From assembly GCA_018883985.1 (NCBI GenBank), contig JAHLFA010000053.1, positions 1 through 56,857 of the forward strand: a stretch of DNA of 56,857 nucleotides, given 5' to 3'. Under the pieces are notes generated by a model that worked only from the letters and a program-made list of their open reading frames with translations, searched no databases and was not told the origin of the DNA. The stretch comes from Candidatus Ruminococcus intestinipullorum (GTDB lineage Bacteria; Bacillota; Clostridia; Lachnospirales; Lachnospiraceae). Shown one piece after another: positions 2,358-42,475 of the stretch (positions within the stretch are counted from its first letter, which is position 1; each line of letters opens with the position of its first letter). A program made the position numbers and the translations under genes.

Positions 2358-3788
2358 ATGAACAAGTATTATTTGGCGATTGATATCGGAGCATCTAGTG
2401 GAAGACACATTTTAGCGTCTATGCAAGATGGAAAGATGCAATTAGAAGAAGTATATCGTTTTGCAAATGGGATGCAAAACAAAAATGGAACATTGTGTTG
2501 GAATGTAGAACAATTATTTGAAGAAATAAAAAATGGATTAAAGAAATGTAAGGAGTATAATAAAATTCCATATACTATGGCTATTGATACATGGGCGGTA
2601 GACTATGTACTCTTAGATAAGGAGAATAAGATTCTAGGTGAAACAGTAGGGTATAGAGATCATCGCACGGAAGGAATGGATGAGAAGGTATACGAAAAAG
2701 TTTCATTAGAAAACTTGTATAATAGAACAGGAATCCAAAAACAAATTTTTAATACAATTTATCAGTTAATGGCTGTTAAGGAACAAAAACCTGAGTTGTT
2801 GGAAGAGGCAGATTCTATGTTAATGATTCCAGATTATTTCCATTTTCTTTTAACTGGAGTTAAGAAGATGGAATATACGAATGTGACAACAACGCAGTTG
2901 GTTAGCCCAATTACAAAAGACTGGGATTTTGAATTGATTGAAATGCTTGGTTTTCCAAAAAAGATTTTTAAAGAAATTTCAATGCCTGGTACAGTAGTTG
3001 GAAACTTTACAAAAGAAATTCAAGAAGAAATAGGATTTGATTGTACAGTTGTATTACCAGCAACACATGATACAGGTTCTGCAGTATTGGCAGTTCCTAC
3101 GAATGATGACCGTGCAATTTATATCAGTTCAGGAACCTGGTCTTTGATGGGGATTGAACGAAAAGATGCAGATTGTTCTTTAGAAAGCATGAGAGCAAAC
3201 TTCACAAATGAAGGTGGATATGACTATCGCTTTCGTTTCTTAAAAAATATTATGGGATTGTGGATGATTCAATCTGTTAAGAAAGAATTTACAGAAGATT
3301 TGTCTTTTGCAGAGATTTGTGCAAAAGCGTCAAGGGAAACTATTACTTCTATTGTAGATTGTAATGACGATTGCTTTCTCGCACCTGAGAGTATGATTGG
3401 GGCAGTGCAGGAATTTTGTAGAAATACAAATCAACAAGTGCCAGAAACAATAGGTGAGATTGCAGCTGTTATTTACAATAGCTTGGCAAAATGTTATGGA
3501 GATACCATCAAAGAAATTGAACAAATTACAGGAAATACATACGATACAATTTACGTGGTTGGTGGTGGGGCAAATGCTGGATATTTAAATGAATTGACAG
3601 CAAAATACACAGAAAAAAGGGTTTCTGCTGGCCCAACAGAAGCTACAGCAATTGGAAATATTATTGTGCAGATGTTATACGACGGAACCTTTGAGAATTT
3701 ATCAGAAGCGAGAACATGTATAGGACAGTCTTTTGATATTTCCCATTACAATGAGCAAGGTGAAAAAATTACAGTTTCAGTACTGTAA
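2358..3788 (+). CDS. rhaB: Rhamnulokinase (FGGY carbohydrate kinase)
   Basis: This 476-aa cytoplasmic kinase phosphorylates L-rhamnulose at C1. The FGGY fold is seen in DIGASSGR at the N-terminus (phosphate-1 loop), IDTWAVDYVLLD and YRDHRT (sugar-site region typical of RhaB), ATHDTGSAV and SSGTWSLMG (central ATPase motifs), and VVGGGANAGYL (adenosine motif). GGAGG precedes the ATG by 6 nt. The gene is followed 29 bp later by rhamnose isomerase, so the pair forms a rhamnose entry operon. A second RhaB-like kinase at 36853 sits beside fucose isomerase, leaving this one as the rhamnose enzyme. Confidence 0.93.
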   Translation: MNKYYLAIDIGASSGRHILASMQDGKMQLEEVYRFANGMQNKNGTLCWNVEQLFEEIKNGLKKCKEYNKIPYTMAIDTWAVDYVLLDKENKILGETVGYRDHRTEGMDEKVYEKVSLENLYNRTGIQKQIFNTIYQLMAVKEQKPELLEEADSMLMIPDYFHFLLTGVKKMEYTNVTTTQLVSPITKDWDFELIEMLGFPKKIFKEISMPGTVVGNFTKEIQEEIGFDCTVVLPATHDTGSAVLAVPTNDDRAIYISSGTWSLMGIERKDADCSLESMRANFTNEGGYDYRFRFLKNIMGLWMIQSVKKEFTEDLSFAEICAKASRETITSIVDCNDDCFLAPESMIGAVQEFCRNTNQQVPETIGEIAAVIYNSLAKCYGDTIKEIEQITGNTYDTIYVVGGGANAGYLNELTAKYTEKRVSAGPTEATAIGNIIVQMLYDGTFENLSEARTCIGQSFDISHYNEQGEKITVSVL

Positions 3789-3817: not shown

Positions 3818-5074
3818 ATGACAGTAAAAGAAAGATATGAATCAGCAAAAAAAATGTATGCAGAAATTGGTGTAGATACAGATAAGGTGTTAGAAACGCT
3901 AAAAGCTGTGCCAGTATCTATGCATTGTTGGCAAGGTGATGATGTAAATGGATTTGACCGTGAAGGTGCATTATCAGGCGGAATTCAAACAACAGGAAAT
4001 TATCCAGGAAAAGCAAGAAATGCAGAAGAATTAATGGCAGATATCGATGAGGTATTAAAATTAGTTCCAGGAACAAAAAAAATTAATGTACATGCATGCT
4101 ACGCTATTTTTGAAAATGGAGAATGGGCAGATCGCAATGAGTTAGAGCCAAAGCATTTTGCAAAATGGGTTGAATTTGCAAAAGAGAGAGGAATGGGGCT
4201 AGATTTTAATCCAACATTTTTCTCACATCCAAAGGCAGAAGATTATACATTAACAAGCCCAGATGAAGAAATTCGTAAGTTTTGGATTCAACATGGACAA
4301 GCATGTATCCGTATTTCTCAGTATTTTGCTGAAGAAACAGGCATGCCATGTGTTATGAATGTTTGGATTCCAGACGGATTTAAGGATATTCCAGCAGACA
4401 GATTAGGGCCAAGAGCAAGATACAAAGATTCTTTAGATCAGATTTTAAGTATTGATTACGATAAATCTAAAGTATATGTGTGTGTAGAATCTAAGGTATT
4501 TGGAATCGGACTAGAAGCATATACAGCTGGTTCAGCAGAATTTACAATGAATTACGTTGCAAATAAAGAGGGTACCATTCCACTTATGGATAATGGGCAT
4601 TATCATCCAACAGAAATGGTATCTGACAAAATTTCTTCTATGCTATTATTCCATGATAAAGTAGCACTTCATGTTACAAGACCAATGCGTTGGGATAGTG
4701 ATCATGTCGTATTGTTTGATGATGAAACAAAAGAAATTATGAGAGAAATCGTGAGAAACGATGCTTTGGAAAGAGTGTTTATTGCAACAGATTATTTTGA
4801 TGCAAGTATTAATCGAATTTCTGCATGGACAGTTGGTATGAGAAACATGCAAAAAGCATTATTAAATGCATTGTTACAGCCAAATGCAAAATTAAAAGAA
4901 CTTCAGGATACAATGCAATTTACTGAGCTTATGATGTGGCAAGAGGAATTAAAAACATATCCTATAGGAGATGTATGGGATTATTATTGTGAAATCAGTA
5001 ATGTTCCAGTAAGAGAATCATGGTTTAGCGAAGTGAAAAAATACGAAGAAGAAGTATTGAGTCAAAGAGCGTAA
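3818..5074 (+). CDS. rhaA: L-rhamnose isomerase
   Basis: The 418-aa protein is full length for RhaA, which interconverts L-rhamnose and L-rhamnulose using divalent metals. Recognisable segments are SMHCWQGDDVNGF near residue 34, KKINVHACYA, the metal-site region DNGHYHPTEMVSDKISSMLLFHDK, and HVTRPMRWDSDHVV in the C-terminal half. It has an AAGGAGAG ribosome binding site and is followed directly by a strong terminator at 5083, so rhaB-rhaA is a two-gene transcript. No rhamnulose-1-phosphate aldolase of the RhaD type follows; the class II aldolase of the microcompartment operon at 6008 is the likely next step. Confidence 0.95.
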   Translation: MTVKERYESAKKMYAEIGVDTDKVLETLKAVPVSMHCWQGDDVNGFDREGALSGGIQTTGNYPGKARNAEELMADIDEVLKLVPGTKKINVHACYAIFENGEWADRNELEPKHFAKWVEFAKERGMGLDFNPTFFSHPKAEDYTLTSPDEEIRKFWIQHGQACIRISQYFAEETGMPCVMNVWIPDGFKDIPADRLGPRARYKDSLDQILSIDYDKSKVYVCVESKVFGIGLEAYTAGSAEFTMNYVANKEGTIPLMDNGHYHPTEMVSDKISSMLLFHDKVALHVTRPMRWDSDHVVLFDDETKEIMREIVRNDALERVFIATDYFDASINRISAWTVGMRNMQKALLNALLQPNAKLKELQDTMQFTELMMWQEELKTYPIGDVWDYYCEISNVPVRESWFSEVKKYEEEVLSQRA

Positions 5075-5082
5075 ATTAAGAG

Positions 5083-5112
5083 AGGCATCCACTTTGTTGT
5101 GGGTGCCCTTTT
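5083..5112 (+). terminator. Rho-independent terminator of rhaB-rhaA
   Basis: Arms 5083-5091 (GGCATCCAC) and 5099-5107 (GTGGGTGCC) form a 9-bp stem with one G-U pair and a 7-nt loop, followed by CTTTT. It lies 8 bp after the rhaA stop codon and directly before the convergent PHP gene's stop. Confidence 0.8.
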
Positions 5113-5818
5113 ATATATTCGTCAATCGCTCTATAGAATAATTTAAAATCAATTCTTTTGGAAATTCTGCTAGTCTTACCATCTCCATAGCATGGTCAAA
5201 ATTTCCTACATATTTTGGGCCGTGGCTATCACTAGACAAAAGAATGGGGTATTTAAAATGCTTACAAAGATTAAGTAGCATTAAATCATTAAAGCGAGTA
5301 TCTCCACGATATCCGTTGGGGCGAAGGGAACTATCATTTAACTCCAAGAGAACATGATGCTCCATAGCTGCTTGGACGAGTGCTAAATAATCCACAGGAA
5401 ATTTTGTATCGTCACAATGCCCAATAATTTTCACATAAGGATTTTTCATAGCCTCGATATAGGCATGTGTATTCTCTGCAATACTCCCTGGCTTTTTTAC
5501 TGGTTTATGCAGACTGGCAATTACAAAATCTAAGCCCTTTAAGATAGCATTATCTAAGTCCAAAGAACCAGTATTATCAAGAATATTTACCTCGGCACCG
5601 TAGAGGATTTTTACCCCAAGTCTTTCTTTTGGGGCATAAGCTAAACTACGAAAATAAGATGGCTTGGCTCCATGCATTGTAGCAGGACCATGATCCGAAA
5701 TTCCTAATAGTTGAAGTCCTAGATTTTGTGCAGCCTTTGCCATATCCGTAATAGTAGCAGTAGAAGCATGTCCACTTGCAATTGTATGAGTATGGAGGTC
5801 AAATTCAAAAGAAGACAT
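5111..5818 (-). CDS. PHP-domain phosphatase (YcdX-like)
   Basis: This 235-aa cytoplasmic protein contains the metal-binding motifs of the PHP phosphoesterase family in order: DLHTHT (H-x-H) at the N-terminus, ISDHG, GAEVN, GHCDD and SSDSHG near the C-terminus. The family cleaves phosphate esters, often sugar phosphates, with a trinuclear metal site. It is monocistronic and placed between the rhamnose operon and the microcompartment operon, with its own sigma-A promoter. Because of that position it may act on a sugar phosphate, but this is only inference; histidinol-phosphatase activity is an alternative. Confidence 0.8.
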   Translation of the reverse strand: MSSFEFDLHTHTIASGHASTATITDMAKAAQNLGLQLLGISDHGPATMHGAKPSYFRSLAYAPKERLGVKILYGAEVNILDNTGSLDLDNAILKGLDFVIASLHKPVKKPGSIAENTHAYIEAMKNPYVKIIGHCDDTKFPVDYLALVQAAMEHHVLLELNDSSLRPNGYRGDTRFNDLMLLNLCKHFKYPILLSSDSHGPKYVGNFDHAMEMVRLAEFPKELILNYSIERLTNI

Positions 5819-5922: not shown

Positions 5923-5951
5923 TTGACTGTTGTGGTTTTGTGTGGTAAAAT
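5923..5951 (+). promoter_or_regulatory. Sigma-A-type promoter of the microcompartment operon
   Basis: -35 TTGACT at 5923-5928, 17-bp spacer, -10 TAAAAT at 5946-5951. Transcription would start about 50 nt before the aldolase ATG at 6008. The flanking sequence is rich in short AACAAC and GTTGTGG motifs that could form an operator for the DeoR repressor encoded in the same operon, but no clean palindrome is visible. Confidence 0.65.
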
Positions 5952-6007
5952 CAAGAAAGAAACAACAAAAACAGAAGTTTGTTTTAATCCAAGGAGGAAA
6001 AAATAGG

Positions 6008-6814
6008 ATGATGAACGAATACGAAATTAAAAAAGAGATGTGTGAAATTGGACGTAGAGTATACAACCGTGGAATGGTTGCTGCCAATGACGGAAACTTT
6101 TCTGTAAGAATTAGTGAAAATGAAATTCTTTGTACACCAACAGGTGTAAGTAAGGGATTTATGACACCTGAGTATATTTGTAAAGTAGATTTAGAAGGGA
6201 ATGTAATTCAGGCAAATAAAGGATTTAGACCATCTTCTGAAATTAAAATGCACCTTCGTGTATATAAAGAAAGACCAGATGTGAAATCAGTAGTACATGC
6301 ACACCCAATGTATGCAACATCATTTGCGATTGCAGGTATTCCATTGACACAGCCAATTATGCCAGAAGCTGTTATTGCATTGGGATGCGTTCCAATTGCT
6401 AAATATGGTACACCATCAACAGAGGAGATTCCAGATGCAGTATCTGAATATGTACAGCATTTTGACGCAGTTCTTCTTGAAAATCACGGAGCACTTGCAT
6501 ATTCTGATTCCTTACTAAATGCATACTATAAAATGGAATCTTTAGAATTCTACGCACAGCTTTTATATCAATCTAAAATGTTAGGCGGACCTCAGGAGTT
6601 AAGCCCAGAACAAGTAGAAAGATTGTATGAACTTAGAAGAGAAATGGGATTAAAAGGAAAACATCCAGCAAACTTGTGTGCAAACGTAAAATCAGGAAAA
6701 CCAAGTTGTCATACATGTGGTGGAAACTGCAGCGATTCAACAAATACAAGTACAGATGCAGATTTAGTGGCTGCAATTACAAAAAAAGTAATGGAACAAT
6801 TAGGACTGAACTAG
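6008..6814 (+). CDS. fucA: Class II aldolase, L-fuculose/L-rhamnulose-1-phosphate type, with C-terminal cargo helix
   Basis: This enzyme cleaves 6-deoxy-ketose-1-phosphates to dihydroxyacetone phosphate and L-lactaldehyde with a Zn ion. Seen: ANDGNFSVR, the SSEIKMH segment with the catalytic Glu, HAHP (two Zn His) and ENHG (third His). The start at 6008 follows AAGGAGG by 10 nt; an earlier start at 5930 would overlap the promoter. The fold ends near residue 215. A linker with Cys224 and a Cys234-x2-Cys237-x3-Cys241 cluster follows, then the amphipathic helix DLVAAITKKVMEQLG at the C-terminus, which resembles BMC encapsulation peptides. It is the first gene of the BMC operon and the only aldolase of this kind in the window, so it probably serves both rhamnose and fucose. 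Confidence 0.9.
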   Translation: MMNEYEIKKEMCEIGRRVYNRGMVAANDGNFSVRISENEILCTPTGVSKGFMTPEYICKVDLEGNVIQANKGFRPSSEIKMHLRVYKERPDVKSVVHAHPMYATSFAIAGIPLTQPIMPEAVIALGCVPIAKYGTPSTEEIPDAVSEYVQHFDAVLLENHGALAYSDSLLNAYYKMESLEFYAQLLYQSKMLGGPQELSPEQVERLYELRREMGLKGKHPANLCANVKSGKPSCHTCGGNCSDSTNTSTDADLVAAITKKVMEQLGLN

Positions 6815-6832
6815 AAAAGAACGAGGTCTGTT

Positions 6833-7333
6833 ATGAATGAACAGGAAATTTCCAAAGCCGTAGAGGCTGTGTTAGAATCATGGAGTCGTAGTGGTCGAGA
6901 TAAGCATAAGGAATGCAAGCTAACATTAGACATTGCAAATGCTTTGATAGAAAGAGTGAAAGCATTTGCACATAAAATGGGAGTTCGTGTTGTGATTGCA
7001 GTATCCGATCAGGCAGGCAGACCTGTTGCAGTACAGTGTATGGATGATGCGTATATCGCAAGCTTTGATATTGCAGTGAATAAATCCTTTACTTCTGCAA
7101 GCCTTAAAATGTCAACAGAAGCTTTGAGTCACTTAAGTCAGCCAGGGCAATCTCTTTATGGAATTCAACATACAAATCAAGGGAGAATTGTTATTTTTGG
7201 TGGCGGTGAGCCATTAGAAGTGGACGGCAAGATTCTTGGTGCTTTAGGTGTAAGTGGAGGCAGTGCAAAGCAAGATACTGAGATTGCGGCTTATGGGAGA
7301 AAGATATTCAAGGAGGTATTGTCGTGTCATTAA
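6833..7333 (+). CDS. DUF336 / GlcG-HbpS family protein (PduO C-terminal domain-like), BMC-associated
   Basis: This 166-aa protein belongs to the GlcG/HbpS (DUF336) family, related to the C-terminal domain of PduO and known in some members to bind heme. The family signature is seen as IFGGGEPLEVDGKILGALGVSGGS near residues 123-146. The first 15 residues (EISKAVEAVLESWS) form a short amphipathic helix like the cargo tags on neighbouring genes, suggesting it is packaged. No adenosyltransferase domain is present, so a cobalamin role is not supported. It overlaps pduP by 10 nt. Its function in BMCs is not established; redox or cofactor handling with the PduS-like protein is a guess. Confidence 0.8.
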   Translation: MNEQEISKAVEAVLESWSRSGRDKHKECKLTLDIANALIERVKAFAHKMGVRVVIAVSDQAGRPVAVQCMDDAYIASFDIAVNKSFTSASLKMSTEALSHLSQPGQSLYGIQHTNQGRIVIFGGGEPLEVDGKILGALGVSGGSAKQDTEIAAYGRKIFKEVLSCH

Positions 7334-8712
7334 ATGAAAGAATGGTTCAGGATATTGTTCAGGAAGTTATGGCAAAGATGCAGCTTCAATCAGAAGTGTC
7401 AGGAAACCATGGGGTGTTTTCTGATATGAACGAAGCAATCGAGGCTTCAAAGAAAACTCAGAAAATTGTGGGACAAATGTCCATGGATCAAAGAGAACAA
7501 ATTATTTCAAATATAAGGAAAAAAACAAAAGAACATGCAGAGATGTTGGCTCGTATGGGTGTTGAAGAAACTGGCATGGGGAATGTAGGACATAAGATTT
7601 TAAAACATCAGCTAGTGGCAGAGAAAACACCTGGTACGGAAGATATTACAACGACAGCTTGGTCAGGAGATAGAGGTTTGACATTAGTAGAAATGGGACC
7701 TTTTGGTGTGATTGGAGCGATTACACCATGTACAAATCCAAGTGAAACTGTTTTATGTAATACAATTGGTATGTTAGCTGGTGGTAATACCGTTGTTTTC
7801 AACCCACATCCTGCAGCAATTAAAACTTCAATTTATGCAGTGAATCTAATAAATGAAGCATCATTAGAGGTAGGTGGTCCAGATAATATTGCTGTTACAG
7901 TCGAACATCCAACGATGGAAACAAGCAATATTATGATGAAGCATAAAGATATTCATTTAATTGCTGCCACAGGTGGACCAGGAGTGGTAACAGCAGTTCT
8001 CTCTTCAGGAAAAAGAGGAATTGGAGCAGGTGCTGGAAACCCACCAGCATTAGTGGATGAAACAGCAGATATAAGAAAAGCAGCAGAGGATATAGTAAAT
8101 GGATGTACATTTGATAACAATCTTCCTTGTATTGCAGAAAAGGAAATTGTTGCAGTAAATTCGATTGCAGATGAATTGTTACACTATATGGTACAAGAAC
8201 AAGGTTGCTATATGATTTCAAAAGAAGAGCAGGATGCACTTACTGCCGTAGTTCTTCAGAATGGCCGTTTAAATAGGAAATGTGTAGGTCGTGATGCAAA
8301 AACACTTTTGGGAATGATAGGGATTGTTGTACCAAATAACATTCGATGTATTGTTTTTGAAGGGGAAAAAGAGCATCCACTTATTGCAGAAGAGTTGATG
8401 ATGCCGATTCTTGGTTTGGTAAGAGCGAAGGATTTTGATGATGCAGTAGAAAAAGCTGTATGGTTAGAACATGGAAACAGACATTCTGCACACATCCATT
8501 CTAAAAATGTGGACAATATTACAAAATATGCAAAAGCTATGGACACAGCAATTCTAGTAAAGAATGGACCGTCTTATGCAGCACTGGGATTTGGTGGAGA
8601 AGGATACTGCACATTTACCATTGCCAGCAGAACAGGTGAAGGGCTTACAAGTGCAAGTACATTTACAAAGAGAAGACGTTGTGTCATGACAGATAGTTTG
8701 TGTATTCGGTAA
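7324..8712 (+). CDS. pduP: CoA-acylating aldehyde dehydrogenase (PduP type)
   Basis: The 462-aa enzyme oxidises an aldehyde (propionaldehyde, or possibly lactaldehyde) to acyl-CoA with NAD+. Seen: the ALDH core with GPFGVIGAITPCTNP (cofactor region), ATGGPGVV, and the catalytic Cys269 in FDNNLPCIAEKE, as in PduP/EutE. The GTG start at 7324 is favoured by GGAGG 7 nt upstream. Residues 4-20 (RMVQDIVQEVMAKM) form an N-terminal amphipathic tag followed by a short linker, the classical PduP encapsulation-peptide arrangement. It is translationally coupled to the upstream gene and precedes the Zn-alcohol dehydrogenase. Confidence 0.93.
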   Translation: MSLNERMVQDIVQEVMAKMQLQSEVSGNHGVFSDMNEAIEASKKTQKIVGQMSMDQREQIISNIRKKTKEHAEMLARMGVEETGMGNVGHKILKHQLVAEKTPGTEDITTTAWSGDRGLTLVEMGPFGVIGAITPCTNPSETVLCNTIGMLAGGNTVVFNPHPAAIKTSIYAVNLINEASLEVGGPDNIAVTVEHPTMETSNIMMKHKDIHLIAATGGPGVVTAVLSSGKRGIGAGAGNPPALVDETADIRKAAEDIVNGCTFDNNLPCIAEKEIVAVNSIADELLHYMVQEQGCYMISKEEQDALTAVVLQNGRLNRKCVGRDAKTLLGMIGIVVPNNIRCIVFEGEKEHPLIAEELMMPILGLVRAKDFDDAVEKAVWLEHGNRHSAHIHSKNVDNITKYAKAMDTAILVKNGPSYAALGFGGEGYCTFTIASRTGEGLTSASTFTKRRRCVMTDSLCIR

Positions 8713-8730
8713 AAGTCAGGAGGAGAAAAA

Positions 8731-9951
8731 ATGGAAATTAATTCAGCAAGTGTAGAAGCAGTTGTAAAACAAGTGCTAGAAAGTATGTTAGACAAACAGT
8801 CTATTGGAAGTACTGCTTCTGTACAGGCAAATGGGAATAATCATGAAATTCCAAAGACTGCTCGTGTAGCAATGTTAACAGCTTTGGAAAATTATGAAAT
8901 TAAAGAATTTCCAATTCCAGAAATTGGAGATGGCGATATTTTGGTAAAAGTAGAAGGATGTGGAATTTGTGGAACAGATGCACATGAATTTAAAAAAGAT
9001 CCTTTCAACTTAATTCCACTAGTTCTTGGACACGAAGGAACTGGGGAAATTGTAAAAATGGGAAAAAACGTTAAAGTAGATAGTGCAGGGAAACCTCTAA
9101 AGCTCGGCGATAAGGTTGTTACATGCATGATTTTCAAAGACAACCCTGAAATTACAATGTTTGATTTAAACAAACAAAACGTAGGGGGAGCAGATGTATA
9201 TGGATTGCTTCCAGATGATGAGATTCATTTAAATGGATGGTTTTCAGATTATATTTTGATTCGTGAAGGTTCTACTGTATTTAACGTAAGCGATTTGGAT
9301 TTGAAATCAAGAATTTTAATTGAGCCATGTGCTGTATTAATTCATGCAGTGGAGCGAGCTAAAACAACAGGAATTTTAAGATTTAACAGCCGTGTTGTTG
9401 TACAGGGATGTGGACCAATTGGCTTGATTTGTATAGCGATTTTGCGTACAATGGGAATAGAAAATATTGTAGCTGTAGATGGGGAAGAAAAACGATTGGA
9501 ATTTGCGAAGAGAATGGGTGCAGAGCATTCAGTAAACTTTAAGGATTTCCAAGGAATCGAAGCTCTTGCAAAAGGGGTAGAAGATGCATTTGGAGGACAT
9601 CCAGCAGACTTTGCTTTCCAGTGTACAGGTTCACCAGTTGCACATGCAAATATTTACAAGTTTATTAGAAATGGTGGAGGGCTTTGTGAACTAGGCTTCT
9701 TCATTAATGGTGGAGATGCAACAATTAACCCACATTTCGATTTATGTGCAAAAGAAATCACATTAGTTGGTTCTTGGGTATATACATTAAGAGATTATGC
9801 AACAACATTTGATTTCTTAAAGAGAGCAAAAGGAATTGGACTTCCAATTGATGAATTGATTACACATGAATTCCCACTAGAGCAAATTAATGAAGCACAT
9901 CGTACAAATTTAGCGATGGAAGGATTAAAGATTGCCATTATCAATCAGTAA
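8731..9951 (+). CDS. Zn-dependent medium-chain alcohol dehydrogenase with N-terminal cargo helix
   Basis: This 406-aa protein is an MDR-family NAD(P)-dependent dehydrogenase. Seen: the catalytic zinc region GCGICGTD (Cys77/Cys80), GHEGTGEIV (His101-Glu102), and the Rossmann motif VQGCGPIGL. The structural-zinc lobe with four cysteines is missing and replaced by a segment around FDLNKQNVGGADVYG. About 40 residues precede the catalytic core; the first 20 (ASVEAVVKQVLESMLD) are a cargo-type amphipathic helix, followed by a Ser/Asn/Gln-rich linker. Likely role: NADH-linked reduction of lactaldehyde to 1,2-propanediol or of propionaldehyde to propanol, recycling NAD+ for PduP. Substrate not determined. 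Confidence 0.88.
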   Translation: MEINSASVEAVVKQVLESMLDKQSIGSTASVQANGNNHEIPKTARVAMLTALENYEIKEFPIPEIGDGDILVKVEGCGICGTDAHEFKKDPFNLIPLVLGHEGTGEIVKMGKNVKVDSAGKPLKLGDKVVTCMIFKDNPEITMFDLNKQNVGGADVYGLLPDDEIHLNGWFSDYILIREGSTVFNVSDLDLKSRILIEPCAVLIHAVERAKTTGILRFNSRVVVQGCGPIGLICIAILRTMGIENIVAVDGEEKRLEFAKRMGAEHSVNFKDFQGIEALAKGVEDAFGGHPADFAFQCTGSPVAHANIYKFIRNGGGLCELGFFINGGDATINPHFDLCAKEITLVGSWVYTLRDYATTFDFLKRAKGIGLPIDELITHEFPLEQINEAHRTNLAMEGLKIAIINQ

Positions 9952-9981
9952 TAGAAATTGATTGTAAAAAGGAGAATAGAC

Positions 9982-10335
9982 ATGGCAGAAGCAGTAGGAA
10001 TGCTGGAAGTATACGGCCTAGCAACAGCCTTTGCAGCAGCAGATGCAGGATGTAAGGCAGGGAATGTTTGGCTAGAGAACTTTGATAAAAATAAACCAGC
10101 AAATGCAGATGCATTGCCAGTACCATTAATCGTAATGATTAAATTTCGTGGAAGTGTATCTGATGTAAGAGCAGCCCTAGAAGCTGCAAAGAGAAAGGCA
10201 GAAGAGTTGGCGGGTGTAGTGAATGTATATGAAATCTCTAGACCGACAGAAGATACAGAAAAGATGCTAAAACTCAATGCGTTTGACAAAGGAAAGTTAC
10301 ATATTGTAGAGGAAAAAGAATTAGAAGAGAATTAG
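9982..10335 (+). CDS. BMC-H shell protein with internal insertion and C-terminal extension
   Basis: This 117-aa protein has the BMC (Pfam00936) fold, starting MAEAVGMLEVYGLATAF. An insertion around DKNKPANADALPVP replaces the usual short pore-region loop, and the C-terminus runs on in a charged tail (EEKELEEN). GGAG lies 7 nt before the ATG at 9982. It would form hexameric shell facets; the altered loop may give a different pore from its paralogues. The insertion and tail make it the most divergent of the four BMC-H copies here. Confidence 0.85.
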   Translation: MAEAVGMLEVYGLATAFAAADAGCKAGNVWLENFDKNKPANADALPVPLIVMIKFRGSVSDVRAALEAAKRKAEELAGVVNVYEISRPTEDTEKMLKLNAFDKGKLHIVEEKELEEN

Positions 10336-10347
10336 GAGGATATCAAA

Positions 10348-10623
10348 ATGGCACAGCAGGCATTAGGAATGATTGAAACAAGAGGACTTACAGCAGCAAT
10401 CGAGGCAGCAGATGCAATGACAAAATCAGCAGAGGTAACACTTGTAGGAACAGAAAAAATTGGTTCAGGTCTTGTAACAGTTATGGTTAGAGGAGATGTA
10501 GGAGCTGTAAAGGCTGCAGTAGAAGCAGGAGCAGATGCAGCAGGAAGATTAGGAGAATTAGTGGCAACACATGTAATTCCAAGACCACATGTTGATGTAG
10601 AAAAGATTCTTCCAACAGTATAA
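10348..10623 (+). CDS. BMC-H shell protein (PduA/PduJ-like)
   Basis: The 91-aa protein is a canonical hexameric [21 protein letters not shown] start, the [17 protein letters not shown] segment with the pore-lining Lys-Ile-Gly-Ser-Gly, and the C-terminal [20 protein letters not shown] precedes the ATG. It is almost identical, at DNA level too, to the core of the BMC-H gene at 11086, pointing to recent duplication or gene conversion. It is probably the major facet protein with a small-polar-molecule pore. Confidence 0.95.
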
Positions 10624-10677
10624 GATTTGCGAATAGAAGCTGTAAGAACGATAGGATAAGGATAAAGGAGAAGTTTC

Positions 10678-10962
10678 ATGGGACAAAGTTATGGTTTTTT
10701 TGAAATCCCAAGTGTTACAGCAGCAATTGATGCAGTAGATATTATGTGTAAAACAGCCGATGTTGAGATGGTAACATGGGAGAAAAAGTTAGGTGGACGT
10801 CTTGTAACGGTTATTATTCGAGGAGATGTATCTTCTGTAACACAAGCTCTTGAAGCTGCCGCAAATAATGGAATCAAAAAGCCTGTATGTTATACAGTGA
10901 TTCCAAGTCCCCATGAAGAGGTTATCAAATTAATCAGCAAGAGCGTGAATCGAATACGTTAG
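10678..10962 (+). CDS. BMC-H shell protein, divergent
   Basis: The 94-aa protein has the single BMC domain: GFFEIPSVTAAIDAVDIM start, then TWEKKLGGRLVTVIIRGD where the pore loop carries Lys-Leu-Gly-Gly instead of Lys-Ile-Gly-Ser-Gly, and YTVIPSPHEEVIKL near the end. The aromatic-rich N-terminus (SYGFFE) differs from the PduA-like copies. Ribosome binding site AAAGGAG. It is a distinct facet protein, probably with different pore selectivity. Confidence 0.88.
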   Translation: MGQSYGFFEIPSVTAAIDAVDIMCKTADVEMVTWEKKLGGRLVTVIIRGDVSSVTQALEAAANNGIKKPVCYTVIPSPHEEVIKLISKSVNRIR

Positions 10963-10974
10963 GAGGCAGTTGGC

Positions 10975-11337
10975 ATGGCAGGGGAAAAGAAGACGACGAC
11001 AGCCAAAGCTCCGTCTAAAACGGTACAAAGAGTGAAAAAGACGGTACAAAATGCAGCGGCCAGGGATGTAAAGGAGGAAAGAAAAATGTCACAAGAAGCA
11101 TTAGGAATGGTAGAAACAAGAGGTCTTGTAGCATCAGTAGAAGCAGCAGATACAATGTTAAAGGCGGCAAATGTAGTATTAGTAGGAACAGAAAAAATTG
11201 GCTCAGGTCTTGTAACAGTTATGGTTAGAGGAGATGTAGGAGCTGTAAAATCAGCAGTAGAAGCAGGAGCAGATGCAGCAGGAAGACTGGGAGAATTAGT
11301 AGCAACACATGTATCCCAAGACCACATACAGATGTAG
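10975..11337 (+). CDS. BMC-H shell protein with alternative N-terminal extension and C-terminal frameshift
   Basis: Two starts are plausible. The ATG at 10975, with its own GGAGG, gives a Lys/Ala/Thr-rich 37-residue extension ahead of a normal BMC-H. The internal ATG at 11086 is preceded by a stronger AAGGAGG and matches the start of the 10348 paralogue. The domain is canonical ([14 protein letters not shown] pore segment), but a one-base deletion near 11311-11314 (GTATCCC where the paralogue implies GTAATCC) puts the last residues out of frame (HVSQDHIQM). Restoring one base would read on through [17 protein letters not shown] and stop at 11361-11363. It could be a real lesion, a sequencing error, or a mildly altered C-terminus. 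Dual initiation would give a long and a short shell subunit. Confidence 0.8.
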
Positions 11338-11379
11338 AAAAGATTCTTCCAGCAATCAAATAATGAAACAATAAGTAAG

Positions 11380-11428
11380 TTCGCGGCCTTATGATTTTAT
11401 ACAATTATGAGGCTTGCGAATCATTTTT
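11380..11428 (+). terminator. Intra-operon hairpin with T run, possible attenuator between shell genes and pduL
   Basis: Arms 11380-11394 and 11405-11420 pair (TTCGC/GCGAA, then GCC/GGC, then six A-T or G-U pairs) with a small internal loop, followed by TCATTTTT. This is a terminator-like structure inside the operon. It could give partial termination, so that BMC-H messages exceed those of pduL, the vertex and the PduS/PduT genes, or it could stabilise the upstream mRNA. Confidence 0.55.
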
Positions 11429-11444
11429 GATGAGGAGATTCAAT

Positions 11445-12095
11445 ATGGACAATAGCAGTGTGGCATTCATTACAAAAATAGTATTAGAAACAGTAGAAAA
11501 ACAAAAGTCTTCTGAAAATGAGCCAGGATATTTGGTTCCCGTAGGAGTGTCGGCAAGACATATTCACCTGACACAGGAGCATATCGAGATATTATTTGGG
11601 TCTGGCTATCAATTGACAAAGAAAAAAGAGTTGATGGGTGGGCAATATGCATCAAATGAAACGGTTACAATTGTAGGATTGAAACTTCGAGCAATTGAAA
11701 ACGTTCGAATTTTGGGTCCAGCAAGAAGTAAATCCCAAGTGGAGATTTCTGCAACAGATGCTATTAAATTGGGAGTAAAGGCTCCCATTAGAGAGTCAGG
11801 AAATATAAAAGGCAGTGCACCGATTGCAGTAGTTGGACCAAAAGGGGTAATTTATTTAGAAGAAGGATGTATTATTGCAAAAAGACATATCCATATGCCG
11901 CCGAAAGATGCACAGGCAGCAGGCGTGCAAGATGGTGACGTGGTATCTGTAAAAGTAGAAAATGAAAGAGGAACTGTATTTAATAATGTGCAGATTCGAG
12001 TAGATGATAGCTTTACATTAGAAATGCATATAGATACAGATGAAGCAAATGCGGCTGGAATTTCTACTGGACAGACTGTAAGGGTGATAAAATAA
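11445..12095 (+). CDS. pduL: Phosphate propanoyltransferase (PduL)
   Basis: This 216-aa enzyme converts acyl-CoA and phosphate to acyl-phosphate and CoA, recycling CoA inside the compartment for PduP. The two Zn-binding His motifs are clear: VSARHIHL near residues 36-42 and AKRHIHMP later, plus LEMHIDTDEANAAG near the C-terminus. The ATG at 11445 has GAGGAG 8 nt upstream; the longer frame to 11391 would start inside the hairpin. The N-terminal helix SVAFITKIVLETVEK is the cargo-tag type, followed by a short polar linker. It yields acyl-phosphate for ATP synthesis by an acyl kinase not encoded here. Confidence 0.93.
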   Translation: MDNSSVAFITKIVLETVEKQKSSENEPGYLVPVGVSARHIHLTQEHIEILFGSGYQLTKKKELMGGQYASNETVTIVGLKLRAIENVRILGPARSKSQVEISATDAIKLGVKAPIRESGNIKGSAPIAVVGPKGVIYLEEGCIIAKRHIHMPPKDAQAAGVQDGDVVSVKVENERGTVFNNVQIRVDDSFTLEMHIDTDEANAAGISTGQTVRVIK

Positions 12096-12137
12096 TAACT
12101 CGTATAAGAAAAATCGCAAGAGAAAAGAGAGGATAAG

Positions 12138-12404
12138 ATGCTGGTAGGAAAAGTAGTAGGAAGTGTTATCTCAACACGTAAAAGTGAAAATTTAATCGGC
12201 AGTAAATTTATGATTGTGGATGTGTTAGACCAGATGCAAACTGTGGGAAAACAACTCGTTGCGATTGATAAGATTGGTGCAGGTATAGGTGAATATGTGT
12301 TGGTGGCACAAGGGAGTGCTGCAAGAATTGGCTGTGACATGGAGAATGCACCTATTGATGCGGCAATTGTTGGAATTATAGATGATGGAACAGGACTGGA
12401 GTAG
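12138..12404 (+). CDS. BMC-P pentameric vertex protein (EutN/CcmL/PduN family)
   Basis: The 88-aa protein has the EutN/CcmL signature: MLVGKVVGSVISTRK start, LIGSKFMIVDVLD, VAIDKIGAGIGEYVLVAQGSAAR, and the C-terminal PIDAAIVGIIDD. These proteins form pentamers capping the 12 vertices of the shell. It is the only BMC-P in the window, which is enough to close a shell. It is followed by the PduS-like gene after a few nucleotides, indicating tight coupling. Confidence 0.95.
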   Translation: MLVGKVVGSVISTRKSENLIGSKFMIVDVLDQMQTVGKQLVAIDKIGAGIGEYVLVAQGSAARIGCDMENAPIDAAIVGIIDDGTGLE

Positions 12405-12408
12405 TGAA

Positions 12409-13758
12409 ATGATGGATATAAAAGAATTAAGCAGCATATTGCAGCAAAATGGAATTGTTGGAGCAGGTGGTGCAGGATTTCCAACATATGCTAAATTAGA
12501 TCAACGGGCAGAAACTATTATCCTAAACTGTGCAGAATGTGAGCCATTACTACGATTACATAGACAATTACTGGAAAAGTATGCACGTGAAATTATAGAT
12601 ACGTTTCATCTTATAGGACAGGCAGTAGGTGCAAAAGAAGTAATCATAGGTATTAAAAAGGCATATAAGCAAACGATAGAAGCAGTAGAATGTGTAATGG
12701 GACAGTACAAGGAAGTACGTCTTGGCCTTTTGGATGAGGTGTACCCAGCGGGGGACGAGGTTGTTCTAATATACGAAGTGACTGGCAAGGTTGTTCGTCC
12801 AGGAGGACTTCCTATTGAAAGTGGTGTTGCTGTATTTAATGTAGAAACAATTTATAATGTATGGCGTGCAATGCAGGAAAAAACACCAGTTGTGGATAAG
12901 TTGGTTTCTGTAGTTGCAGAAGTGGAAAAGCCAATTACAGTTCGTGTACCTTTAGGAACTACTATTCAAGAAGTAGTTGACTTAGCTGGTGGAACAACAA
13001 TAAAAGATCCCGTATACTTTATTGGAGGACCAATGATGGGATTCATTGGAAGTGGTTCACAGCCTGTAACGAAAACAACCAATGCAGTACTTGTGCTTCC
13101 ACAAGATCATTATCTTGTAAAACGCAAGAGGAGTAAATCTTCTATCGACATGAAACGTGCAGCTGCATGTTGTTGTCAGTGTTCTATGTGTACAGATTTA
13201 TGTCCAAGAAATCTGTTGGGACATCCAATTGAACCACATTTATTTATGCGTGCAGCAACATGTAAGGATGTACAAAAGCCAAATGTTTTTATCAATACAT
13301 TTTTCTGTTGTTCTTGTGGAATTTGTGAGTTATACTCTTGTCCACAGGAGTTATCTCCAAGAACATTAATGTTAGAGTATAAAAACGGATTACGTGCAAA
13401 TGGATTACGTGCACCAGAAGTAGTTGCAGATGCAGTAGGATATGAAAGAGCATATAGACGAGTTCCTATGGAACGATTGATGTCAAGATTGGACTTGACA
13501 AAATATAATAAAGAAGCTCCATTGGACGAGTCAACAGTGGCAGTAAGGCAGGTAAAGATTATGCTAAGCCAACATATAGGAGCACCAGCCGAAGCAATAG
13601 TAAAAGTTGGAGAACAAGTTACTAGAGGGCAGATGATTGCCCAGCCAGCAAAAGGGTTGAGTGTGGGAATACATTCCTCTGTAGATGGATTGGTAAGTGA
13701 AGTAAATGAGAAATATGTGGTCATAGTGGCTAAGGAAGGACGTGCAGATAATGAGTAA
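12409..13758 (+). CDS. pduS: PduS-like flavo-iron-sulfur protein (RnfC-related)
   Basis: This 449-aa protein (start at 12409, GGAG 7 nt upstream; the longer frame from 12382 overlaps the vertex gene) begins with the Rnf/Nuo-51-like NAD/FMN region (GIVGAGGAGFPTYAKL). It contains two Fe/S motifs: Cys255-x2-Cys258-x2-Cys261-x3-Cys265-Pro and Cys300-x2-Cys303-x2-Cys306-x4-Cys311-Pro. In B12-dependent Pdu compartments PduS donates electrons for cobalamin repair and binds the shell protein PduT. Here no cobalamin enzyme is present, so electron transfer across the shell or NADH reoxidation is more likely. Its stop overlaps the BMC-T start. Confidence 0.9.
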   Translation: MMDIKELSSILQQNGIVGAGGAGFPTYAKLDQRAETIILNCAECEPLLRLHRQLLEKYAREIIDTFHLIGQAVGAKEVIIGIKKAYKQTIEAVECVMGQYKEVRLGLLDEVYPAGDEVVLIYEVTGKVVRPGGLPIESGVAVFNVETIYNVWRAMQEKTPVVDKLVSVVAEVEKPITVRVPLGTTIQEVVDLAGGTTIKDPVYFIGGPMMGFIGSGSQPVTKTTNAVLVLPQDHYLVKRKRSKSSIDMKRAAACCCQCSMCTDLCPRNLLGHPIEPHLFMRAATCKDVQKPNVFINTFFCCSCGICELYSCPQELSPRTLMLEYKNGLRANGLRAPEVVADAVGYERAYRRVPMERLMSRLDLTKYNKEAPLDESTVAVRQVKIMLSQHIGAPAEAIVKVGEQVTRGQMIAQPAKGLSVGIHSSVDGLVSEVNEKYVVIVAKEGRADNE

Positions 13759-14299
13759 GGCAATTGGGATGGTAGAATATAAAACTACATCAGCAGGTGT
13801 AGTAGCAGCAGATTCTATGGTCAAAACATCTGAAGTAAATATTATTGAAGCTCAAACCGTATGTCCAGGAAAATATATTGTAATTATTACAGGAGATTTA
13901 AGTGCGGTAAATTCAGCTGTGGAAAATGCACAAAGATTACACGGCAAGCACCTTATAAACAGTTTCGTTTTAGGGAATCCACATGAATCTATTTTTCCTG
14001 CAATTTACGGAGCAGCAGAAATTCATGACGTATCAGCATTAGGAATCATCGAATCTTATGATGCTTCTTCAATTATTGTGGCAGCAGATGAAGCAGCTAA
14101 AACAGCAATTGTAGAGTTAATCGAAGTACGTTTGGCTAGAGGTATGTGTGGAAAGTCGTATCTTATGTTGACAGGAGAGATAGCGGCAGTAGAAGCAGCA
14201 GTTGAAAGAGCGAAAGAAGCTATCTCAAAAGATGGCATGTATTTGGATTCAGCAGTGATTGCACATCCAGATGCACAAATAAGAGATGCTATTTTATAA
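13751..14299 (+). CDS. pduT: BMC-T trimeric shell protein with Fe/S-type pore cysteine (PduT-like)
   Basis: Two tandem BMC domains are visible (about residues 1-90 and 95-182), so the protein forms pseudohexameric trimers. Cys38 in TVCPGKY sits at the position that in PduT holds a 4Fe-4S cluster on the trimer axis. The ATG at 13751 is chosen because AAGGAAGGA ends 10 nt upstream; the GTG at 13742 is too close to it. The gene overlaps the pduS stop, consistent with physical coupling of the two. It probably conducts electrons between PduS and the outside. No second BMC-T (PduB type) is present. Confidence 0.92.
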   Translation: MSKAIGMVEYKTTSAGVVAADSMVKTSEVNIIEAQTVCPGKYIVIITGDLSAVNSAVENAQRLHGKHLINSFVLGNPHESIFPAIYGAAEIHDVSALGIIESYDASSIIVAADEAAKTAIVELIEVRLARGMCGKSYLMLTGEIAAVEAAVERAKEAISKDGMYLDSAVIAHPDAQIRDAIL

Positions 14300-14325
14300 T
14301 ATTAAATTCACCAGGAGGCAATAGA

Positions 14326-15090
14326 ATGCTCGCAATAGAAAGGCGTAACGAAATATTAGAAAAACTGCAGACAGACAGAAGGGTCGTTGTGAGTGAGTTA
14401 AGTCAAATTTATAATGTTTCTGAAGAAACAATTCGCCGTGATTTAGAAAAGCTCGTAAACGATGGATATGCTATCAAAAGCTATGGTGGAGCTGTAATCA
14501 ATGAAAATACAAGTATTGATCTGCCATTTAACATTCGAAAAAAGAGAAATGTAATAGGAAAACAAAAAATAGCAGATTTAATAGCAAACCTTGTTCAGGA
14601 TGCAGATAGTATTATGTTAGATGCTAGTTCTACAGCTGTCTATATTGCAAAAGCACTGAAAGAGAAAAAGCATTTAACATTGATAACAAATTCTATGGAA
14701 ATTATGCTCGAGTTGTTTGATGTGCCAGAATGGAAAGTAATGTCTACTGGAGGAGTTTCCAGAGAAGGTTCTTTTGCACTTGTTGGTGCTCAGACAAATC
14801 GGATGTTACAGTCTTATCATGTAGATAAAGCGATTATATCTTGTAAGGGATTGGATTTTGAGGCTGGAATTACAGACTCAGACGAGTTGCTTGCAGATAA
14901 CAAAAGAACGATGTTAGAGGCAGCAAAAGAGAGGATTCTTGCAGTAGACAGCAGTAAGTTTGGAACTACGGCATTTATGACAATCGCAAAGTTAAGAGAT
15001 ATTACAACAATTGTAACAGATGAAAAACCAGATACAAAGTGGTTAAAGAGGTTTCAGGAGTTAGGAATAGAGTGCATCTATCCAGAGTAG
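14326..15090 (+). CDS. DeoR-family transcriptional regulator of the microcompartment operon
   Basis: This 254-aa repressor has the DeoR helix-turn-helix at residues 1-60 (ERRNEILEKLQ, VSELSQIYNVSEETIRRDLEKL, GYAIKSYGGAV) and a DeoRC sugar-phosphate-sensing domain (DASSTAVYIAK, LITNSMEI, STGGVSREG, DKAIISCKGLD). The family usually responds to a phosphorylated sugar, here plausibly fuculose- or rhamnulose-1-phosphate. It is co-directional, 26 bp after the BMC-T gene and 12 bp before the Fe-alcohol dehydrogenase, so it is probably autoregulated. Confidence 0.92.
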   Translation: MLAIERRNEILEKLQTDRRVVVSELSQIYNVSEETIRRDLEKLVNDGYAIKSYGGAVINENTSIDLPFNIRKKRNVIGKQKIADLIANLVQDADSIMLDASSTAVYIAKALKEKKHLTLITNSMEIMLELFDVPEWKVMSTGGVSREGSFALVGAQTNRMLQSYHVDKAIISCKGLDFEAGITDSDELLADNKRTMLEAAKERILAVDSSKFGTTAFMTIAKLRDITTIVTDEKPDTKWLKRFQELGIECIYPE

Positions 15091-15102
15091 AGGGGATATT
15101 GT

Positions 15103-16248
15103 ATGAAAAGCTTTGACATTAAGACAAAGGTGTATTTTGGGGATCGTGCATTGGATCGTCTTGCAGAAATTCCTTATAAAAAAGTTTTAGTAATTACAGA
15201 TCCGTTTTTAGCACAAAGTAGTATGTTTAATCTGATAACGGATCCATTGAAAAAGGGAAATATAGAATATGATGTTTTTCAGGATGTAGTTCCTGATCCA
15301 CCAATTGATAAGATTAGTGAAGGTGTTAAAAGATTATTGGAATACAAGCCTGAGGCAATTATTGCAGTAGGAGGAGGCTCTGCGATAGATTCATCAAAAT
15401 CTATTCGTGAGTTTGCACTTCGCATTGAAAATTATGGAGAAGTTGGTTTAATTGCAGTTCCAACAACAAGCGGAACTGGTTCAGAGGTTACCTCTTTTGC
15501 TGTTGTATCAGATCCAAAAGAGCAAAGAAAGTATCCGTTGGTTTCTAAAGATATGACACCTGATGAGGCTATTTTAGATGCAGAGCTTGTAAAAAGTGTT
15601 CCACCATCTGTAACAGCAGATACAGGAATGGATGTGTTTACCCATGCATTGGAAGCATGTGTAAGTATTGACAAAAATGACTTTGCTACAGCTTTGGCAG
15701 AGAAAGCGATTGAAATATGTGGAGTATTTTTATTGCGTGCATATTTAGATGGTGAAGATACACATGCTAGACAAAAGATGCATGCAGCGTCTTGTTTGGC
15801 AGGGTTGGCATTTAATTCGGCTTCATTGGGATTAAATCATGGAATGGCTCATCAATTAGGAGCTACATTCCATATTCCACATGGTAGAGCAAATGCGATG
15901 CTGCTTCCTCATATTATAGAGTTTAATAGTGATATTAATAAGCACAGTAAGAGTCAAAGCAAATATTTACCAGCAGTGGAACGTTATAAAACGGTAGCAA
16001 GAATTTTAGGTTTGAGCAGTTATAATACGATTATGACAGTGAGAAACCTTGTGAATTGGGTTCAGTTTATGTTAAAGGAAATGGATATTCCACTTTCCAT
16101 ATCACAGATGGGAAAAATATCAAAAGAGGAATATTTTGCCCAGATTGAAAGAATGGCAGAGGCTGCTTTGGTAGATGGTTGTACAGCGACAAATCCTAGA
16201 GTACCTAGTAAAGCTGATATTATGAGGATTTATGAAGAACTTTGGTAA
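15103..16248 (+). CDS. Iron-containing alcohol dehydrogenase (PduQ/FucO-like)
   Basis: The 381-aa group III ADH carries the NAD-binding GGGSAIDSSKS, the PTTSGTGSEVTSF segment, and iron ligands in DVFTHALEA (Asp and His), GLNHGMAHQLG and HIPHGRANA. Members reduce propionaldehyde to propanol (PduQ) or L-lactaldehyde to 1,2-propanediol (FucO). It lacks the N-terminal helix tag of the other enzymes. It is the last gene of the BMC operon, followed by a terminator. With the Zn-ADH at 8731 the operon has two reductases, one perhaps for each aldehyde. Confidence 0.9.
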   Translation: MKSFDIKTKVYFGDRALDRLAEIPYKKVLVITDPFLAQSSMFNLITDPLKKGNIEYDVFQDVVPDPPIDKISEGVKRLLEYKPEAIIAVGGGSAIDSSKSIREFALRIENYGEVGLIAVPTTSGTGSEVTSFAVVSDPKEQRKYPLVSKDMTPDEAILDAELVKSVPPSVTADTGMDVFTHALEACVSIDKNDFATALAEKAIEICGVFLLRAYLDGEDTHARQKMHAASCLAGLAFNSASLGLNHGMAHQLGATFHIPHGRANAMLLPHIIEFNSDINKHSKSQSKYLPAVERYKTVARILGLSSYNTIMTVRNLVNWVQFMLKEMDIPLSISQMGKISKEEYFAQIERMAEAALVDGCTATNPRVPSKADIMRIYEELW

Positions 16249-16278
16249 AAAGTTCCTAAGATATGTGGATAAAATATA

Positions 16279-16325
16279 GGAGATAATAAAAGTATGTGAA
16301 TAAGTACTCTTATTATCTCCTTTTT
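16279..16325. terminator. Terminator of the BMC operon, probably bidirectional
   Basis: Perfect 11-bp arms GGAGATAATAA (16279-16289) and TTATTATCTCC (16310-16320), followed by TTTTT on the plus strand. The convergent DUF624 gene ends 8 bp beyond. Confidence 0.8.
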
Positions 16326-42195: not shown

Positions 42196-42475
42196 TAGTC
42201 AATACAGATAATAAGTTTTTATAAAGGTTATGAGGAAGAGGAGTACACATTTACTATTGACAGAGAGAACTACTCTAAGGCTGGAAGGTAGTTTCAATAA
42301 AGGGCTGTGGAAGGTAGCTTCTGAACTGGATATCTGAACGAGATGAGTAAGATTTCCCGTTGTTGTTCACGTTATAGAACAAAAAGAGAGGTATACAGGC
42401 ATTTCGTGCCTTGTATATAATTAAGGTGGTACCGCGAGATATTCGCCCTTTACATAATGTGTAAAGGGCGTTTTA
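42196..42475 (+). promoter_or_regulatory. T-box leader (tRNA-Val sensing) upstream of valS
   Basis: The conserved T-box sequence AAGGTGGTACCGCG lies at 42423-42436. A terminator follows: arms CGCCCTTTACA (42444-42454) and TGTAAAGGGCG (42460-42470) with a TTTT tail. Upstream sequence folds in the manner of T-box stem I, with a GGAAGGTAG motif twice (42282-42290 region and 42309-42317). Uncharged tRNA-Val should bind and favour antitermination. I could not fix the specifier codon by eye. Confidence 0.92.

Follow-up and report, generated by a model that had tools for sequence, protein, structure and literature searches.

A GRM5-type fucose and rhamnose microcompartment operon probably served by an unlinked, co-regulated B12-dependent dehydratase

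Among the bacterial microcompartments (BMCs) described for fucose and rhamnose, the closest to the locus studied here is the GRM5 type of C. phytofermentans and R. inulinivorans (Petit 2013, PMC3557285). As reported there, the locus comprises an aldolase, a DUF336 protein, PduP, a Zn-dependent alcohol dehydrogenase (ADH), shell proteins, PduL, PduS and a DeoR protein, together with a glycyl-radical enzyme (GRE) and its activase. C. phytofermentans is reported to form propanol and propionate from fucose and rhamnose. Here we analysed a window of 56,857 nucleotides, which is contig C39 (JAHLFA010000053.1) of a metagenome-assembled genome (MAG; 2.14 Mb, 137 contigs, 83.5% complete) whose genus we take to be Mediterraneibacter (Lachnospiraceae). 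The window carries a shell operon at 6008-16248 that shares all these components except the GRE and the activase. These two are all that separates it from the GRM5 definition, the class II aldolase, DUF336, PduS, DeoR and Zn-ADH being present (gene order was compared with GRE-bearing relatives only). We consider it highly probable that this GRM5-type fucosome has lost the GRE of its operon, and that an unlinked, co-regulated B12-dependent PduCDE, packaged in trans, replaces it.

Dehydratase genes and encapsulation-like tags

The initial annotation had found neither a glycyl-radical nor a B12-dependent diol dehydratase in the 56.8 kb and had offered two readings: a dehydratase encoded at another locus and packaged in trans, or PduP acting on lactaldehyde itself. 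Profile searches of the whole assembly bear out this absence: the PFL-like family (PF02901) gave no match and PF02286 gave a single one, on contig C1, so that the window holds a dehydratase of neither class. Because 56 of 58 Mediterraneibacter genomes (the genus set; genomes are labelled G and loci L below) have a PFL-like gene, its lack in our assembly may reflect the incompleteness of the MAG. The match on C1 belongs to a locus in which the large, medium and small subunits and the reactivase were all matched (PF02286, PF02288, PF02287 and PF08841/PF18427):

C1:33267-34931, pduC
C1:34944-35594, pduD
C1:35595-35987, pduE
C1:35984-37807, pduG
C1:37797-38138, pduH
C1:38153-38716, adenosyltransferase

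The genome-wide search proposed earlier returned no GRE from the assembly and, instead, a B12-dependent PduCDE whose PduD carries an encapsulation-like tag. A dehydratase elsewhere in the genome, packaged in trans, is in outline what the unlinked locus supports, although the enzyme is PduCDE and not a glycyl-radical one; the only dehydratase named in the refuting condition of the annotation was a tagged GRE, and a B12-dependent enzyme fell outside that statement.

Six BMC domains were found in the assembly (the five listed all lie in the window), and as the window operon itself contains six, it is the sole shell locus of the assembly. No homologue of its shell proteins occurs in eight pdu neighbourhoods, namely our own, inspected by eye, and those of seven relatives searched by BLAST (L056, L058, L061, L063, L067, L069 and L071). 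Likewise, for four relatives the BMC domains were listed in full (9-13 each, versus 6 in our MAG), and none of them is close to pduC. The pdu locus is therefore not a satellite BMC locus, a term used for loci that hold shell genes at a distance from the main one. Satellite shell genes are scattered in relatives, for example in G012:C1 near 1943742, 2352420 and 3273990, and in G046 the end of the pdu operon is separated by about 3 kb from a different GRE (L071 3982-6399; 35% identical to the diol-dehydratase type).

The diol dehydratase of Salmonella is targeted to its compartment by the N terminus of PduD. In the genus, PduD begins with a conserved 20-residue stretch in 30/30 loci (L021-L050, from 30 of the 33 PduC genomes): mean pairwise identity is 0.84 over alignment columns 1-20 and 0.17 over columns 31-50, about half of which are gaps, before the conserved domain begins. 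In an overlapping PduD set, 28 sequences also begin with such a tag. PduD thus displays the pattern of a terminal tag and a variable linker used to recognise cargo, and it aligns from residue 1 with the diol dehydratase beta chain 1dio_B, but only from residue 51 with the K. pneumoniae glycerol dehydratase beta chains. Within the shell operon, candidate tags were recognised by eye at the C terminus of the aldolase and at the N termini of HbpS, PduP, Zn-ADH and PduL. When helical moments were compared with shuffled sequences, values as high were reached in 3% of shuffles for PduD and 4% for HbpS, while the aldolase, PduP, ADH and PduL did not score high. The tag assignments are accordingly putative, drawn from sequence pattern and, for PduD, from conservation.

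A predicted operator and the distribution of the dehydratases

The aldolase gene (fucA) that opens the shell operon is preceded by the following elements:

5923-5951, + strand, predicted promoter, read from the sequence: -35 TTGACT (5923-5928), 17-bp spacer, -10 TAAAAT (5946-5951)
5931-5945, + strand, predicted operator TGTGGTTTTGTGTGG within the -35/-10 spacer, common to the pduC upstream region

Such a placement in the spacer would be that expected of a repressor site, and the DeoR protein of the operon is its likely reader. Searching the 2.14 Mb of our assembly for TGTGGTTTTNTGTGG with up to one mismatch gave exactly two sites, the one in the window (5931-5945) and one that precedes pduC by 126 bp (C1:33127-33141); the reversed pattern gave none, and shuffled sequence leads one to expect 0.01 sites for the window and 0.01 for the 20-kb surroundings of pduC. 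The core TGTGG-N5-TGTGG is exact upstream of fucA in 20/20 genus loci (L001-L020), and upstream of pduC it is exact in 26 of 30 genus regions and within one mismatch in 28. Across the 58 genus genomes, TGTGGKWTTNTGTGG has 70 exact sites, of which 33 precede fucA and 28 precede pduC by at most 300 bp and 9 lie elsewhere, as against two sites in total for the reversed control. Other upstream regions of L055-L074 matched in 0/274 cases at up to one mismatch; the background of 303 regions as first drawn (8 exact, 4 with one mismatch) included fucA and pduC regions, and the 29 overlapping ones were dropped.

The site also precedes pduC, with 0-1 mismatch, in 8/8 tested GRE-bearing loci; most of these come from outside the genus, and M. 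massiliensis is among them. A second set consisted of 80 named loci, 50 of which were picked by hand to give 49 genomes searched for PduC; it overlaps the genus set. In these 80 loci the fucA operator has an exact core in 35, one mismatch in 17 and 2-4 mismatches in 26, two regions being too short, so that not every member of the wider family has the operator. Upstream of the GRE, it is found with 2-3 mismatches in ten loci (L051-L054 and L185-L190), and among 42 GRE upstream regions of the named loci it is exact in three and has one mismatch in six, three being too short. Several loci with the operator before the GRE have a fucA without the site, and in some GRE-first operons the operator may sit before the GRE. 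Three such operons (L091, L123 and L155) have the exact core ahead of the GRE but lack it ahead of the aldolase.

We then compared the occurrence of PduC, the aldolase and the GRE, diol-dehydratase-type GREs being called at E up to 1e-150. A full tagged aldolase is present in 33 of the 58 genus genomes, and PduC in 30 of these 33 versus 3 of the 25 others (Fisher 7e-10, a descriptive value only, as the genomes are related and the counts phylogenetically non-independent). Two of the three exceptions contain aldolase fragments; counting them in, the figures become 32/35 versus 1/23. PduC also occurs in 33/37 genomes with BMC domains and in 0/21 without (lists compared by hand). By comparison, the diol-dehydratase-type GRE is found in 7/58 genomes, together with PduC in G008, G012, G018, G026 and G057 and without it in G010 and G030; it adjoins the aldolase in G010, G012, G018 and G030 and is distant in G008, G026 and G057. 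The 33 full-aldolase genomes thus divide into 25 with PduC only, 5 with both enzymes, 2 with GRE only, both of these within the operon among the three that lack PduC, and one with neither (G053).

In many relatives a slot beside a PHP-domain gene upstream of the aldolase holds the GRE and an open reading frame (ORF) of about 265 aa, presumably the activase. Among the 49 named genomes, PduC is found in 20 of the 27 without a slot GRE and in 8 of the 22 with one. The fucA operator is exact in 21 of the 27 slot-less loci, and PduC accompanies it in 20 of the 21 genomes, the sole exception being G053; the other six loci have a fucA operator with 2-4 mismatches and no PduC. These six genomes carry a GRE elsewhere, 68-80% identical to two reference GREs, which in one case probably sits on the same contig some 11 kb upstream. 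L185-L190 are six Clostridia outside the genus in which a diol-dehydratase-type GRE is displaced from the aldolase slot and fucA has no operator.

The shell operon, its proposed pathway and the alternatives

All genes named in the initial annotation of the operon are ORFs with Pfam support at the coordinates given for them (calls use the main Pfam match of every gene above its cut-off); a refinement of that first description is that rhaB and rhaA lie upstream of the operon. The genes are:

2358-3788, + strand, rhaB-type sugar kinase of the FGGY family (Pfam FGGY_N/C; named for its adjacency to rhaA)
3818-5074, + strand, L-rhamnose isomerase RhaA (Pfam RhaA, 633 bits)
5111-5818, - strand, PHP-domain protein that flanks the GRE slot of relatives (Pfam PHP; gene order of relatives)
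6008-6814, + strand, class II aldolase, presumed fuculose/rhamnulose-1-phosphate aldolase, with a C-terminal encapsulation-like tag (Pfam Aldolase_II; tag by eye)
6833-7333, + strand, HbpS/DUF336 protein with an N-terminal tag-like helix (Pfam HbpS-like; tag by eye)
7324-8712, + strand, PduP, CoA-acylating aldehyde dehydrogenase with an N-terminal tag-like helix (NCBIfam NF011927, 662 bits; best solved match 4c3s; tag by eye)
8731-9951, + strand, Zn-dependent ADH with an N-terminal tag-like extension (Pfam ADH_zinc_N/ADH_N; tag by eye)
9958-10335, + strand, BMC-H shell protein 1 (Pfam BMC)
10348-10623, + strand, BMC-H shell protein 2 (Pfam BMC)
10678-10962, + strand, BMC-H shell protein 3 (Pfam BMC)
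10975-11337, + strand, BMC-H shell protein 4 (Pfam BMC)
11391-12095, + strand, PduL phosphate propanoyltransferase with an N-terminal tag-like helix (Pfam PTAC; NF011652; tag by eye)
12138-12404, + strand, BMC-P (EutN/CcmL) vertex protein (Pfam EutN_CcmL)
12382-13758, + strand, PduS/RnfC-like flavo-iron-sulfur protein (Pfam Complex1_51K, RnfC_N, SLBB, Fer4_17)
13742-14299, + strand, BMC-T shell protein with two BMC domains (two PF00936 stretches)
14326-15090, + strand, DeoR-family regulator that may read the shared operator (Pfam DeoRC/HTH_DeoR)
15103-16248, + strand, Fe-dependent ADH without an obvious tag (Pfam Fe-ADH)

The aldolase starts at the ATG at 6008, preceded by AGGAGG, which supersedes a mechanical TTG call at 5930; as all NCBIfam models shown for it fall below their cut-offs, its substrate is taken from context. 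The NCBIfam neighbours of the Fe-ADH, AdhE and lactaldehyde reductase, are each below cut-off as well. The operon has one BMC-P for four BMC-H genes, and the last seven or so codons of the fourth BMC-H are not in the reading frame seen in three relatives, possibly through a real change or an assembly error. In relatives, an extra BMC-H lies just 5' of the aldolase (G046:C12:55903-56085 and G018:C4:524851-525036), and a EutP/PduV-like GTPase was recognised by eye upstream of several loci; the 190 bp between the PHP gene and the aldolase in the window are too small for either. An Rfam scan of the window, L055 and L067 gave one T-box and no cobalamin riboswitch; the T-box leader (RF00230, window 42221-42453) lies 5' of an 882-aa ORF resembling, by eye, a valyl-tRNA synthetase.

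In the pathway that we propose, the tagged aldolase would cleave fuculose- or rhamnulose-1-phosphate into dihydroxyacetone phosphate and lactaldehyde, which would be reduced to 1,2-propanediol, likely by the Fe-ADH. PduCDE, maintained by the reactivase PduGH and the cobalamin adenosyltransferase, would convert 1,2-propanediol to propionaldehyde, from which the Zn-ADH would form propanol, and PduP and PduL would form propionyl-CoA, propionyl-phosphate and finally propionate. The N-terminal tag of PduD would direct PduCDE into the shell made by the window operon, and the TGTGG-N5-TGTGG operator, probably read by the DeoR protein, would control the shell operon and pduCDE together, so that both would be induced at once.

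PduP bears on the main alternative. Its best solved match, 4c3s, we take to be Cphy1178 of C. phytofermentans. Published work describes Cphy1178 as preferring propionaldehyde and having negligible activity on glyceraldehyde, which its authors explain by I421 and I433, E. coli lactaldehyde dehydrogenase having Glu and His at these positions. The window PduP has L421, F423 and I433, and among 69 PduP ORFs from the 80 named loci residues 421/433 are L/I in 59 and I/I in 10 (the search pattern itself required F423). The window enzyme keeps the hydrophobic pocket of a propionaldehyde dehydrogenase, which argues against lactaldehyde oxidation. Under lactaldehyde dismutation, as proposed for the planctomycete PVM compartment, PduP would yield lactoyl-CoA, PduL and a kinase lactate, and an ADH 1,2-propanediol as end product, PduCDE serving a separate pathway. 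In favour of this scheme, the operon holds no dehydratase, and Ravcheev 2019 reached this conclusion for such fucose/rhamnose BMCs, where 10 of 13 Pvm-BMC genomes had PduCD and 6 of the 13 had it co-localised, the form of the enzyme not being stated there. Against it stand the shared operator, the conserved PduD tag and the co-occurrence of PduC with the aldolase, together with the diol-dehydratase-type GRE found elsewhere in 6 of the 7 PduC-negative slot-less genomes and the PduP pocket residues. We therefore set it aside as very improbable, and the suggestion in the initial annotation of PduP acting on lactaldehyde, and of a different metabolic type of BMC, found no support, a tagged and apparently co-regulated dehydratase being present. 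Very little weight likewise falls on a GRE diol dehydratase that is encoded in the genome, missing from the MAG and packaged in trans, with PduCDE secondary. The incompleteness noted above would allow for it, and both enzymes do coexist in five genus genomes, three of which (G008, G026 and G057) have the GRE at a site apart from the operon; but only 7/58 genus genomes match such a GRE, and the interval from PHP to aldolase contains none, either in the window or in its nearest relative.

The remaining alternative, that PduCDE is a glycerol dehydratase (3-hydroxypropionaldehyde/1,3-propanediol) merely borrowing the shell, we hold to be unlikely. Its alpha subunit is indeed nearer the K. pneumoniae glycerol dehydratase (1iwp_A, 902 bits) than the diol dehydratase 1dio_A (831 bits); yet the operator is common to the fucose operon, no other dehydratase for the fucose route was found in our assembly, and PduCDE is described in the literature as using both substrates. 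The alpha-subunit score is one of several points, beside the relatedness of the genomes, that weigh against replacement by PduCDE. With another diol dehydratase beta chain, 5yrt_B, the alignment of PduD does not begin until residue 46, and the start of the adenosyltransferase, not thought to be a tag, also has a high helical moment (1% of shuffles), so that this measure fails to separate tags from other termini. The operator is exact in the window and carries one mismatch before our own pduC. In the pduC regions of the genus it has three mismatches in G012 and four, at a contig edge, in G008, and the nine exact sites elsewhere lie in G003, G005, G008, G011, G032 (two), G036, G049 and G057, those of G008 and G036 near contig ends and those of G003 and G011 in genomes without shell genes. 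In G053 (90% complete; source of L134), operon and operator are both present, yet PduC and a diol-dehydratase-type GRE are both missing; PduC does occur in its near kin L131. Finally, R. gnavus ATCC 29149 is reported to form propanol and propionate on mucin and fucosylated glycans (only the rise of propanol on mucin being significant), but PduCDE homologues are noted for this strain and it is listed as GRM5, so that its products do not separate the dehydratases.

A quick tree was built from four concatenated operon proteins of 68 loci, contigs too short upstream being scored as unknown. The window falls beside L076, whose contig has the order RhaA-PHP-FucA with no GRE between, and the GRE-bearing locus of G012 is their sister; a separate clade of 19 loci (17 scored, 2 unknown) has no slot GRE. 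At least six changes of GRE state are needed on the tree. As the GRE-bearing state is widespread around both groups, it is simplest to suppose that the operon lost its GRE twice within the genus: the GRE would have left at least twice if its presence is ancestral, although gains instead of losses may have occurred. We lean towards a view in which the fucosome shell is a stable chassis and the radical dehydratase is swapped stepwise, a tagged unlinked B12 enzyme gaining the operator of the compartment, then coexisting with the GRE until the latter's exit. The coexistence stage is now seen in 5/58 genus genomes.

Comparison with known compartments

Altogether, the whole-genome search, the tag and the operator point to a route through propanediol that uses a B12-dependent enzyme. 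If this is correct, fucose-to-propionate conversion in many Mediterraneibacter would depend on cobalamin, the signature enzyme of such compartments could not be found near the shell genes, and these genomes would represent an intermediate, open to testing, in how compartments exchange their signature enzymes. BMC catalogues, in the descriptions available to us, assign function from shell-adjacent genes, so that shell-free cargo loci escape them. The literature that we drew on, consulted in part, comprises PMC6620236, PMC4207490, PMC8217296, PMC8156839, PMC3557285, PMC4762007, PMC9403272, PMC11414229, PMC3808388 and PMC6231298. In the passages of openly accessible papers that we consulted, we found no earlier description of an unlinked, co-regulated PduCDE with a fucosome. 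Partial precedent is given by Clostridium methylpentosum, with its B12 dehydratase and BMC, and by R. gnavus, for which PduCDE was noted.

As compared with GRM5, the window takes PduCDE from an unlinked locus in place of the GRE and activase of the operon. It also fits what has been described for PVM-like loci (Axen 2014; Sutter 2021), including a class II aldolase and, in most of those loci, a DeoR gene, except for its two ADHs, one Fe- and one Zn-dependent, the lack of ADHs being common in those loci and not strictly defining; a core ADH is reported in one PVM-like locus only, and PVM-like loci are considered possible GRM5 fragments (Axen 2014). A further difference is that a tagged dehydratase in trans, with a shared operator, is identified for the window. 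The genome shares PduCDE, PduGH, the adenosyltransferase and PduP/PduL with the PDU compartment, and the N terminus of its PduD aligns with 1dio_B. In PDU, however, the dehydratase is encoded with the shell genes, whereas here the two lie on contigs C1 and C39, respectively, and the shell operon includes an aldolase; PDU is described as using PocR, and the window operon has DeoR. The fucose/rhamnose BMC of C. methylpentosum likewise has a B12 dehydratase, co-localised there and unlinked in our genome (Ravcheev 2019). In the same work, PduCD was found not to be co-localised in some genomes and was judged to lie outside the pathway; for Mediterraneibacter, we argue that the predicted tag and operator speak against this view.

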